Below, one piece after another: positions 44,912 through 49,583 of a stretch of DNA of 64,000 bases. This DNA comes from Turneriella parva. Lineage in GTDB: Bacteria > Spirochaetota > Leptospiria > Turneriellales > Turneriellaceae. The first letter of the stretch is position 1. Each line of letters starts with the position of its first letter. A program made the position numbers and the translations under genes. The DNA is taken from NCBI GenBank assembly GCA_020719945.1, contig DYPL01000001.1:3528-67527 (forward strand). Reading direction: 5' to 3'. Below the pieces are notes generated by a model. It had not been told where the DNA came from. It did not search any database and saw only the letters and a program-made list of their open reading frames with translations.

Positions 44912-45372
44912 TGCAGGAAAAAGTTATTCCATTCTACTCTATACACTTTACTCACCAGGACCTATTAATCGAATCCTTAAAAACTATAGAAAAGAGAATT
45001 GGCAGGTATGACTATTTTTCCGCAGACACTCCGGCTGGTGAAGAGAAAGTTCGCTTTATAGGCTATTCAAAACTCACGAATCGAGCAGATCTTTTCCGGT
45101 ATCTGGAACGCATTGAGCGGGCCATACCGAACAGCTCCGTTGCCCTGTGGTTTTCAGTTGGCTATATTTCCATGCAGCAGGTAGTGTCGGCGTGGACGAC
45201 TTACCAGCCAGACAGAATCTTCTGCAACAAGGGATACTATCTAAAACAGGAAATGATGTGGAACGGAGAAACATTTTTGCCGCTGGCTCATGCGGGTAGC
45301 GAGTATAAACAGAAGGTTACTCAATTCTTCTTTCGTTCTTTGCACGCCTCTCTGATTGCGAAACTTCGCTGA
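44911..45372 (+). CDS. DUF4416-like hypothetical protein
   Basis: A 153-aa cytoplasmic protein. The start (LLIESLKTIEKRIGRYDYFSADTP) and end (RIFCNKGYYLKQEMMWNGETFLPLAH..) resemble DUF4416, a family of unknown function common in spirochaetes and deltaproteobacteria. The last 56 nt overlap the 3' end of tilS on the other strand. Confidence 0.55.
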   Translation: MQEKVIPFYSIHFTHQDLLIESLKTIEKRIGRYDYFSADTPAGEEKVRFIGYSKLTNRADLFRYLERIERAIPNSSVALWFSVGYISMQQVVSAWTTYQPDRIFCNKGYYLKQEMMWNGETFLPLAHAGSEYKQKVTQFFFRSLHASLIAKLR

Positions 45373-46588
45373 TGTCCTTCCAGCCACAATAGCTACCCCA
45401 AATGCGCAGCACCCTGTGAGAGTGAGGGTGAGAGTGTTCAAACTCAAATAGAATAGAATTTTTCTGTCGAATGGATAGTTTTTGTTCGTTAATTAATTTG
45501 CGAACACTCTTATGCCCGTAGTGGAGCATGATAACGTCTTTTTTGGTTAGATCATTAAATCGTTTTGTAGGGCCCTGGATGGTTGTGGGAGGAAGGCATA
45601 CAGATCTGCCTTTTCGGAAAACAATAAAATTTATATTTCCCTGTTTCTCTATTTCTGCAACAAACGGCCCATAACGGAAAAATAACTTGTTCAGAAAAAT
45701 TCTTCGATGTGATGTGTTAAGGACGCCTAAACCAAGCTTGCGCATTGCACGACCAAGCAATATTTCCCTGTCTACCTCTGGCAACAGAAGATATTTTTCC
45801 AAAGGATAAACAAATTCTCTATCCGGGACCACCATTTGCAATAGAGAAAGAATCTTGAGGATTCTATTTTCGCGGGCCTCCCGCTCTGACAGGAAAAGGA
45901 GAGCGCTTTGGCGTATGCCATCCAGATTCCAGATGGGTAATGCAGATCGCAAAACAACTCTTCTAATTTTTTTTGAATCATTTTCGGGATCTTCCCACCA
46001 GGGCAAATTATTCTCTTCTGCTAATTTCCGAATAGAGGCCCTGTCAGTCAGGGCGAGAGGACGAACTTCGTTAATTCCGTATTCATTAGTAACAAATGGA
46101 AATGGTGCCAAAGCTTGAGGCGAAGCCCCGCGGTTTATTTTTAAGACAAGAGTTTCGTACCAGTCATTTAAATTATGCCCCCAAAAAACAATGCCATTGG
46201 GAGACGCTAACCGGCAGGCAAGTCTCCGGCGAACGAGAGAACCTGCCCGTTCAAAGGAGGTCTTCATCATACGAGCGATTCGGGGGACATTTCTTTTGTA
46301 GCAAATAAGTTGGGCCTCCTCAAATCCATTCTTCTTGAGTAAAAGGAGGTGTTCTCTTAAAATCGATTTTCTATCTTCCTGTACCGACTCTGGGTAGGGA
46401 ATAGAATGATCAACACAGACGAGAGTTATACTGGGAGGGGGAGAAAGTACTTTGGCTGTCTGCATGAGTACAAGCAAACTTACGGTAGAATCTGCACCGC
46501 CCGATGTAAACAGAAACCAGTCTTTTGATTGTAGTTGGTGCTTTGTAAAAACGCTGGTAAGATTATTTGAGAGCGCGTCCAAGTTCAT
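45317..46588 (-). CDS. tilS: tRNA(Ile)-lysidine synthase
   Basis: Modifies C34 of tRNA-Ile(CAU) to lysidine so that it reads AUA, an essential step. The PP-loop ATPase motif is FTSGGADSTVSLLVLM at residue 29. VCVDHSIP, GHNLNDWYETLVLKINRG and RPLALTDRASIRKLAEENNLPWWEDPEND are typical. The C-terminal domain is present; total 423 aa. It overlaps pth by 26 nt and is convergent with the DUF4416-like gene. Confidence 0.92.
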   Translation of the reverse strand: MNLDALSNNLTSVFTKHQLQSKDWFLFTSGGADSTVSLLVLMQTAKVLSPPPSITLVCVDHSIPYPESVQEDRKSILREHLLLLKKNGFEEAQLICYKRNVPRIARMMKTSFERAGSLVRRRLACRLASPNGIVFWGHNLNDWYETLVLKINRGASPQALAPFPFVTNEYGINEVRPLALTDRASIRKLAEENNLPWWEDPENDSKKIRRVVLRSALPIWNLDGIRQSALLFLSEREARENRILKILSLLQMVVPDREFVYPLEKYLLLPEVDREILLGRAMRKLGLGVLNTSHRRIFLNKLFFRYGPFVAEIEKQGNINFIVFRKGRSVCLPPTTIQGPTKRFNDLTKKDVIMLHYGHKSVRKLINEQKLSIRQKNSILFEFEHSHPHSHRVLRIWGSYCGWKDISEVSQSERRAKNERRIE

Positions 46589-47150
46589 ATCGGCTTAGAA
46601 CGTCTTTGATATCCTGTGTTAGAATGGAGCGCAATGCTGCTTCTGCATCATTAATAACGTTAATAATTTTCAAATTTTCTTTGGGTTGAAAATCGGAGAG
46701 AACAAACTTCTCTATTTTGGGTTCTGGCATGTTTTCTTCGGGAAGAGGACCAACGCCAACGCGAATACGAATAAACTTATCGGATTTCAGCTCTTTGGCG
46801 ATAGAAAGAATCCCTTCATGATTAATTTCTACCGGGCCTCTCGCAACCTGAACTTCTCCATATAAAATATTATAGTCGTCATACACGATAATAATATTTT
46901 CCACTCGAACGCGCAAAAAGGAGGCTATGTAAAGCACAGCCTCCCCGGAAAGGTTCATAAAAGTCTGCGGTTTTAGAAGGACAATTTTGTGCCCTTCAAA
47001 ATCGCCCTGCCCTAGAAGGGATTTCTTTTTTTTCGTTTTGATCTGGATACTGGTGTTGTTTGCGATTACGTCTACAATCTTAAACCCAATATTCCGGCGA
47101 TTGTTCATGTATCTATCGCCCGGATTGCCGAGACCAATAACTAATTTCAT
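46563..47150 (-). CDS. pth: peptidyl-tRNA hydrolase homologue with altered active site
   Basis: A 195-aa protein clearly of the Pth family: VIGLGNPGDRYMNNRRNIGF, LLKPQTFMNLSGEAV and IIVYDDYNILYGEVQVARG. Two catalytic positions differ. The TRHNxG segment is NRRNIG, so the catalytic histidine (His20 in E. coli) is arginine. GGHNG is INHEG, so Asn114 is glutamate. Asn10, Asn68, Asp93 and His113 equivalents are kept. It may be inactive, or act on another substrate. Position between rplY and tilS is the standard pth locus. Confidence 0.85.
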   Translation of the reverse strand: MKLVIGLGNPGDRYMNNRRNIGFKIVDVIANNTSIQIKTKKKKSLLGQGDFEGHKIVLLKPQTFMNLSGEAVLYIASFLRVRVENIIIVYDDYNILYGEVQVARGPVEINHEGILSIAKELKSDKFIRIRVGVGPLPEENMPEPKIEKFVLSDFQPKENLKIINVINDAEAALRSILTQDIKDVLSRYELGRALK

Positions 47151-47764: not shown

Positions 47765-48706
47765 TTACAGGAAGAGCGAGCTGACAGATCTCTCTTCGTG
47801 TATCCTCAAAATCGCTTCTCCAATAAGCGGAGCAACCGAGAGGATTTTTAAATTATCCAGCCTTTTTTGCGGTGGGATCACCAGCGTATTAGTTACGATA
47901 ATTTCATCTATAGGGGCTTCGCGCAATCTTTCAATTGCGGGCCCGGAAAGAACGCCATGCGTGGCAGCAGCCAGAACTTTTTTGGCTCCCTGTGCTTTCA
48001 GAGCAATCGCGGCTTTTGCGATAGTTCCCGCAGTATCGATCATGTCGTCTATAAGCAGGGTGTTTTTCCCGGCCACATTCCCGACAATGTTCATGACTTC
48101 GGACTCATTTGCTCGTTCGCGGCGTTTATCAATAATGGCAAGGCCGGCATCGAGATGCTTGGCAAAAAAACGGGCTCTCTCAGCCCCGCCAGAATCAGGT
48201 GAAACAATGACGAGATCCGAAAGGTTAAGCTCTTTAAAGTATTTTACAAGAACGGGAGAGGAAGAAAGATGATCTACCGGGATTTCAAAAAAGCCCTGAA
48301 TCTGATCGGCATGGAGGTCCATGGAAATAACGCGACGCACGCCAACCGCTTCTAACACAGTCGCTACAAGCTTGGCAGAAATGGGAACGCGCGGTTGTAC
48401 TTTTCTGTCCTGGCGGCCATATCCATAGTAGGGAATTACGACGGTAATGCGCCGGGTAGACGCCCTGCGAAGAGCATCTACAATCAGAAGCAGCTCCATT
48501 ATGTTATCGTTAGCAGGTGCTCCCGTAGATTGAATTACGAAAACATCTGCCCCGCGCACGTTGTCCGTAATTTTGACCGAGATCTCTTCGTCGGAGAAGC
48601 GCTTTATTTCAATGGGGCTAAGGTCCACTCCCATATATCGGGAAATTTCACGGGAGAGTTCCTGATTGGAGGTTCCCGCAAGAATTTTCATTTCGGCTTC
48701 TACCAT
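47765..48706 (-). CDS. prs: ribose-phosphate pyrophosphokinase
   Basis: Makes PRPP from ribose 5-phosphate and ATP, 313 aa. KILAGTSNQELSREISRYMG, VQPRVPISAKLVA, ISMDLHADQIQGFFEIPVDHL and the PRPP loop NTLLIDDMIDTAGTIAKAA are diagnostic. The first ATG shares a base with the glmU stop (TAATG); a second ATG at 48691 fits the usual N-terminus better. Confidence 0.96.
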   Translation of the reverse strand: MVEAEMKILAGTSNQELSREISRYMGVDLSPIEIKRFSDEEISVKITDNVRGADVFVIQSTGAPANDNIMELLLIVDALRRASTRRITVVIPYYGYGRQDRKVQPRVPISAKLVATVLEAVGVRRVISMDLHADQIQGFFEIPVDHLSSSPVLVKYFKELNLSDLVIVSPDSGGAERARFFAKHLDAGLAIIDKRRERANESEVMNIVGNVAGKNTLLIDDMIDTAGTIAKAAIALKAQGAKKVLAAATHGVLSGPAIERLREAPIDEIIVTNTLVIPPQKRLDNLKILSVAPLIGEAILRIHEERSVSSLFL

Positions 48707-49491
48707 TAGAAAACTCCCTGCGCAAGGCGCGACTCAAGATAGGCAAGTTGTTCAGGTGAATTAACACCAAGAAATTCGTCCGGATTCTGTGAGCGGAAAA
48801 CAATAAACTTATAACCATTATTTTTCATCAATTCCACGATATCTGTCAAGTAGAACTCACCCTGTGCATTATTGTTCTCAATGCGATGAATCTGGGTGCG
48901 CAGGACGGAAAGGCGGAAAACGAAGACTCCGGTGTTTACTTCTCGTACTGTTTTTTCGTTCTCAGATGCATCTTTTTCTTCTATAATTTTGAGTAGTTCA
49001 TTGTTGTTGTCACGAATAATTCTACCATATCCGGTTGGATCCGCAAGATCCATACTTATCACAAGGCCGTCTGCGTTTTCTTCCAGAAGCAGATGATAGC
49101 TTTTTATCATGGTTTCGGGAGTTATAAGAGGAACATCGCCATATAAAACAATGGCAAAGTCTGCACTGCTGCTCAAGTAAGGCTCAGAGACAGCTACAGC
49201 ATGACCTGTTCCCTTTTGTTCTTCTTGTACAGCGAACGATATTTCTGAAGCTAATCGAGATTCTTGGATATACGAACCAACCGTGCTGCGAACTTCGTCT
49301 TTGCCATAACCAATAATGACCGTTGCTTTTTGTATTTGAGCCTTGGAGAGATTGTTGAGTACGTGCAGAAGCATGGGCTTGCCCGCGAGTGGGTGTAAAA
49401 CCTTCGGGAGGGGACTCTTCATCCTGGTGCCCTTACCAGCCGCCAGAACAATTGCCTGCAATTTTGTCATGTCTGGACTTGTGTTCAGCAT
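48706..49491 (-). CDS. glmU: UDP-GlcNAc pyrophosphorylase, GlmU N-terminal domain only
   Basis: Nucleotidyltransferase domain of GlmU, 261 aa. AIVLAAGKGTRMKSPLPKVLHPLAGKPML, then EQKGTGHAV, YGDVPLI and EVNTGVF are conserved. The left-handed beta-helix acetyltransferase domain of full GlmU (about 450 aa) is missing, so GlcN-1-P acetylation must be done by another protein. ATG at 49491 follows GGAAGAAAAA; the longer frame to 49551 runs into the tRNA and is rejected. Confidence 0.88.
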   Translation of the reverse strand: MLNTSPDMTKLQAIVLAAGKGTRMKSPLPKVLHPLAGKPMLLHVLNNLSKAQIQKATVIIGYGKDEVRSTVGSYIQESRLASEISFAVQEEQKGTGHAVAVSEPYLSSSADFAIVLYGDVPLITPETMIKSYHLLLEENADGLVISMDLADPTGYGRIIRDNNNELLKIIEEKDASENEKTVREVNTGVFVFRLSVLRTQIHRIENNNAQGEFYLTDIVELMKNNGYKFIVFRSQNPDEFLGVNSPEQLAYLESRLAQGVF

Positions 49492-49511
49492 TTTTTCTTC
49501 CGACGTTTTTG

Positions 49512-49583
49512 CTGGGCCGGGAGGATTCGAACCTCCGTATGGCGGTACCAAAAACCGCTGCCTTACCGCTTGGCGACGGCCCA
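49512..49583 (-). tRNA. tRNA-Gln (UUG)
   Basis: On the minus strand a 72-nt cloverleaf. The acceptor arms are TGGGCCG and CGGCCCA with discriminator G, the anticodon loop TTTTGGT carries the anticodon TTG, and the T-arm contains GGTTCGAATCC. CCA is not encoded (GCAAAA follows the acceptor). It lies between ispE and glmU in the same orientation and is probably processed from the operon transcript. Confidence 0.95.

Follow-up and report, generated by a model that had tools for sequence, protein, structure and literature searches.

The rplY-linked pth gene of Turneriella parva

We analysed a stretch of 64,000 nucleotides from Turneriella parva (assembly GCA_020719945.1, contig DYPL01000001.1, positions 3,528 to 67,527), referred to here as the window. 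On its reverse strand, next to rplY, lies a gene for a paralogue of peptidyl-tRNA hydrolase (Pth1) that lacks catalytic residues of the enzyme and is called the disarmed copy below. The gene, its neighbours and the codons of interest are as follows, in positions of the window.

45317..46588 (-), PP-loop ATPase gene (tilS-like; Pfam), whose start overlaps the end of the disarmed pth
46563..47150 (-), disarmed Pth1 paralogue, 195 aa, ATG start
46815..46817 (-), Glu codon 112 (GAA) at the site of Asn114 (E. coli numbering), motif INHEG
46875..46880 (-), Asp91-Asp92 (E. coli 93-94), acidic adenine pocket, kept (role: PMC11994314)
47022..47033 (-), KKKK block, residues 40-43
47094..47096 (-), Arg codon 19 (CGG) at the site of the catalytic His20 (E. 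coli numbering), motif NRRNIG
47124..47126 (-), Asn9 (E. coli Asn10, peptide carbonyl contact), kept (role: PMC11994314)
47168..47740 (-), rplY (bL25/CTC; Pfam), ending 17 bases upstream of the disarmed pth
47765..48706 (-), prs, upstream of rplY (Pfam)

A GlmU-like protein is encoded at 48706-49551 (-). It is only 281 aa long, and a Pfam scan found its nucleotidyltransferase domain but no acetyltransferase (left-handed beta-helix) domain.

The window protein is a full-length Pth1 homologue whose membership of the family is beyond doubt. In profile searches it matched PF01195 at 1.3e-52, its sole Pfam match, and TIGR00447 at 1e-46, and it gave no match to the Pth2 profile (PF01981). Its TIGR00447 score was 158.9 bits against a cut-off of 100 bits, and NCBI's own TIGR00447 model would label it plain 'pth, equivalog'. 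AlphaFold2, run with our alignment A1, predicted a confident Pth fold (mean pLDDT 86.9, pTM 0.86), and a Foldseek search with the predicted model returned the Pth 8iu6 (TM 0.87/0.91) and the chloroplast protein CRS2 (1ryb, 0.84/0.88).

The active site is only partly preserved. In Thermus thermophilus Pth, His19, Asn57 and Asp82 (E. coli 20, 68 and 93) are strictly conserved catalytic residues, Asn9 recognises the peptide, and Asp82/Glu83 lie in the adenine pocket (PMC11994314). The catalytic histidine has been termed absolutely conserved (PMC8071115), and E. coli Pth cannot function without it (Goodall 2004, cited in PMC8071115). The window protein has the oxyanion Asn68 as Asn66 (MNLSG) and Asp93 as Asp91, but the general base His20 is replaced by Arg. 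The site of Asn114 carries Glu, neither Asn nor a positive residue, and the Gly-rich gate loop that should precede it is also gone (ARGPVEINHEG). A preliminary description of the window had read NRRNIG in place of TRHNxG and INHEG in place of GGHNG, with codons CGG and GAA; both substitutions were found to be real.

Residue loss and conservation across the disarmed clade

Pth loci from about 110 spirochaete genomes were aligned, giving 56 disarmed orthologues, from Leptospiria (the window's class) and neighbouring spirochaete families, and 131 other Pths. His20 was present in all 131 of the other Pths and in none of the 56, where its place was taken by Q (21 copies), S (15), R (9), A (6), K (3), C (1) or L (1). 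Asn114 was also absent from all 56, the site being mostly P, A, I, E, L or V. Sequencing error or chance was rejected, both losses being common to every orthologue. The preliminary description had proposed such an alignment of relatives as a check, and its claim held for both residues, with a refinement for Asn114: Arg or Lys stands at this site in other Pths, including T. thermophilus Pth, which is active as a purified enzyme (PMC11994314), so that Asn114 by itself is not diagnostic. More broadly, the clade has lost both His20 and the Gly-rich gate loop (GGxGGHNG).

Other functional positions were kept. Asn10 and Asn21 were found in 56/56 disarmed copies, position 93 was acidic (D/E) in 55/56, and position 94 was Asp and position 133 Arg or Lys in all of them; residue 133 has a role in the binding of peptidyl-A76. 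The equivalent of E. coli His113 (His111 in the window) was retained in 50/56. Positions 67 and 68 vary across the clade; Asn68 was kept in 29/56, with Asp, Glu or Thr in about half. Residues 40-43 read KKKK in 55 copies and RKKK in one. This block is also present in many active-type rplY-linked spirochaete Pths, single-copy relatives included, and we rejected it as a novelty of the disarmed clade; it is ancestral. Invariants specific to the clade are K24, N32, I163, N167 and E170, with N31 and V184 nearly so.

The disarmed copy is under strong purifying selection. Among 38 genomes with both this copy and a second, intact Pth (described below), mean pairwise identity was 60.5% for the disarmed copy and 43.3% for the intact one, and the disarmed copy was the more conserved in 99% of genome pairs. 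Five pairs gave a dN/dS of 0.014-0.052 for it; for the intact copy, the three pairs with unsaturated dS gave 0.056, 0.195 and 0.231. Because it evolves more slowly than the intact copy, with dN/dS of 0.01-0.05, it is no relic, and a pseudogene was rejected by dN/dS and conservation.

The distribution was determined by scanning 296 Spirochaetota genomes with alignment A1. Besides the window's class, the disarmed type is found in families f12, f23, f31, f35, f39, f41 and f46, and its members include metagenome-assembled genomes labelled Leptospiraceae (L136-L138, L140) or Spirochaetes (L139, L141-L145). Its absence outside Spirochaetota is unproven. In the phylogeny, the disarmed copies group as a single clade (support 100/99) within the active rplY-linked Pths of spirochaetes (support 95/94). 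The intact partners belong to a separate Pth lineage, nearer by sequence to gammaproteobacterial Pths; a recent duplication as their source is unsupported, and their donor or age is unsettled.

The position beside rplY was largely constant. rplY lay directly upstream of 53/56 disarmed copies, the remaining three being near contig ends or giving no hit; prs was a neighbour of 50 and glmU of 45, while the tilS-like gene adjoined the copy downstream in 15/56. The alternative intact copies were never beside rplY, and the intact and disarmed genes were unlinked. The tree and the rplY synteny together show that it is the copy at the native locus that was disarmed, and that the unlinked copy holds the working residues.

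Altered Pths with His20 were also seen elsewhere in the phylum. In Brachyspira-like genomes (f14/g36; L122:4950-6173, L290-L293) two tandem Pth genes follow rplY, and in the upstream one an acidic insert replaces the gate loop while His20 is kept. Pths with a degenerate gate loop and His20 were found at L294 and L308 (G063, G074) and at L125:185-727 (G057), each with a second, normal Pth in the genome.

A second, intact Pth in the same genomes

The preliminary description had inferred that another enzyme must recycle peptidyl-tRNA, and had proposed a search for a second pth or an arfB/pth2 gene. This prediction was met by a second Pth1. The genome of the window (2.42 Mb in 146 contigs, estimated 100% complete) encodes it on a separate contig (G000:C25:23889-24407, (+)), followed by a signal-peptidase-I-like gene, with the GTRHN and GGGHKGHNG motifs intact; the two Pths are 34% identical. 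A back-up hydrolase of another kind was not found in this genome: a profile search gave no match to PTH2 (PF01981), and there was no sign of ArfB, since only two RF-1-family matches were obtained, the number expected for prfA plus prfB.

The pair of disarmed and intact copies recurs in nearly all relatives. In the 296-genome scan, 60 genomes with the disarmed copy were at least 90% complete, and 59 of them had a second Pth. The exception, G023 (92% complete), showed only the disarmed copy, and a gene that neighbours the intact copy elsewhere was missing as well, which points to an assembly gap. That G023 lives on the disarmed copy alone is therefore unsupported, although the search for this neighbour was run without a positive control.

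The intact-type Pth of one genome (G014, L061:4974-5536) is split over two frames, by a frameshift or a sequencing error. Three spirochaete genomes estimated to be 91-97% complete (G244, G049, G070) gave no Pth1 or PTH2 match, which may reflect assembly gaps or another peptidyl-tRNA hydrolase.

A putative role without hydrolysis

The loss of residues, the single origin, the rplY locus, the intact partner, the slow evolution and the predicted fold are shown by sequence. That the disarmed protein is inactive as a hydrolase is very likely, but this is inferred, and there are no biochemical data. The preliminary description had taken it for a Pth that is inactive or has been repurposed at its standard locus, which is supported by the rplY linkage, the clade-wide catalytic loss and the purifying selection.

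We propose, with moderate confidence, that the protein is a Pth1 pseudoenzyme: it would bind peptidyl-tRNA or another RNA but leave it uncut, the hydrolysis falling to the unlinked Pth. Peptidyl-tRNA hydrolysis would have been taken over by a distantly related second Pth in an ancestor shared by Leptospiria and several neighbouring families of spirochaetes; the original rplY-linked Pth would afterwards have lost the general base His20, Asn114 and the gate loop, and would have been kept under strong selection for a role independent of hydrolysis. It may serve as a sensor, a protector or an RNA-binding factor of translation, holding peptidyl-tRNA, tRNA or other RNA uncleaved. Binding is suggested because Asn10, the acidic A76 pocket, the basic residue 133 and the lysine block are retained, and binding without cleavage is the simplest reading of a protein in which the peptide contact and the acidic adenine pocket survive while the general base and Asn114 are gone. 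As the retained role, however, binding is only weakly inferred, from these residues and without binding data. Against it, the binding site is partly altered, the gate loop is gone and Asn68 is changed in about half of the copies; against the pseudoenzyme reading as a whole, His111, kept in most copies, could possibly act as a base, and G023 shows the disarmed copy alone, though this points to an assembly gap.

A bolder reading, toward which we are a little more sceptical than favourable, is that the rplY-linked spirochaete Pth already had a second, non-hydrolytic function in translation (binding of peptidyl-tRNA, tRNA or the ribosome), which was exposed when another Pth came to provide the chemistry; the rplY-linked one would then have lost catalysis and kept this function under stronger constraint than the enzyme itself. 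The Pth next to rplY has likewise lost its gate loop, but not His20, in family f21 and in the tandem pairs of Brachyspira-like genomes, and in both cases the second Pth is normal. This parallel loss of the gate loop supports an older hydrolysis-independent role.

Four other explanations were considered. The disarmed protein could be a regulatory partner that pairs with or controls the intact Pth. Dead paralogues regulate their partners in other enzyme families, for example the AdoMetDC prozyme of trypanosomes. The almost strict co-occurrence of the two copies and the new invariants I163, N167 and E170 in the C-terminal helix of the disarmed protein speak for this; but the two genes are unlinked, and only the intact copy evolves fast (43% mean identity), which would not be expected of an obligate pair evolving together. 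We regard this explanation as unlikely.

It is less likely still that the protein remains a hydrolase whose chemistry is done by another residue such as His111, or by a base that has moved, and which may act on a special substrate. The His113 equivalent in 50/56 copies and the retained Asn10, acidic 93 and basic 133 would allow it. Against this stand the essential nature of His20 in E. coli Pth and its conservation, described as absolute, the clade-wide loss of the gate loop and Asn114, the loss of Asn68 in half of the copies, and the presence of a complete, intact Pth.

We have equally little confidence that the protein processes RNA in the manner of CRS2, as a Pth that a protein partner has drawn into RNA splicing or the assembly of RNPs. 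CRS2 (1rym) was the top PDB sequence match, though barely above ordinary Pths (5.4e-28 vs 6.8e-28), and it is described as without Pth activity (PMC9275481). However, in the alignment from this search CRS2 itself keeps the His and Asn motifs, and its partners have CRM domains, for which a search (CRM/YhbY, PF01985) gave no match in any of 41 relatives while the control gave matches in 7 genomes; a CRS2-CAF-like partnership was rejected.

Finally, a decaying relic heading for loss, for which only the lost catalytic residues speak, is all but excluded by intact reading frames, by dN/dS of 0.01-0.05 with evolution slower than that of the working copy, and by retention across a class and several other families, and was already contradicted by the conservation data.

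Throughout an entire bacterial clade, strong selection maintains a Pth without the catalytic histidine at the canonical locus, although this residue is held to be absolutely conserved, and it is likely that Leptospira-type spirochaetes keep this Pth for a different job. We found no description of a His-less Pth in spirochaetes in the literature searched, which left out most subscription journals. Pth is generally regarded as essential in bacteria and is a drug target. Automatic annotation names both copies 'pth', and the whole disarmed clade is probably mislabelled; in Leptospira-type spirochaetes, genetics or inhibitors directed at the rplY-linked gene would therefore hit the wrong protein. 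With two such copies, it can also be asked cleanly whether Pth has a role beyond hydrolysis.

Compared with known systems, the disarmed copy resembles bacterial Pth1 (E. coli Pth, S. aureus 4yly, E. faecium 8iu6) in full-length homology, predicted fold and rplY-linked locus, and in keeping Asn10, acidic 93 and basic 133; it differs in lacking His20, Asn114 and the gate loop and in its variable positions 67 and 68. CRS2, which derives from Pth and acts in the splicing of chloroplast group II introns, is near the top in both sequence and structure similarity and sets the precedent for a Pth that works without hydrolysis (PMC9275481). The Pth fold is kept for a non-hydrolytic role in both, by inference only for the disarmed copy, but CRS2 keeps TRHN and HNG, belongs to a plant organelle and works with CRM proteins. 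The upstream tandem Pth of Brachyspira-like genomes (e.g. G055, G116) is also rplY-adjacent, has the KKKK block and an acidic stretch in place of the gate loop, and shares its genome with a normal Pth, there directly beside it; unlike the disarmed Pth, it keeps His20 and Asn114 and belongs to a separate clade.
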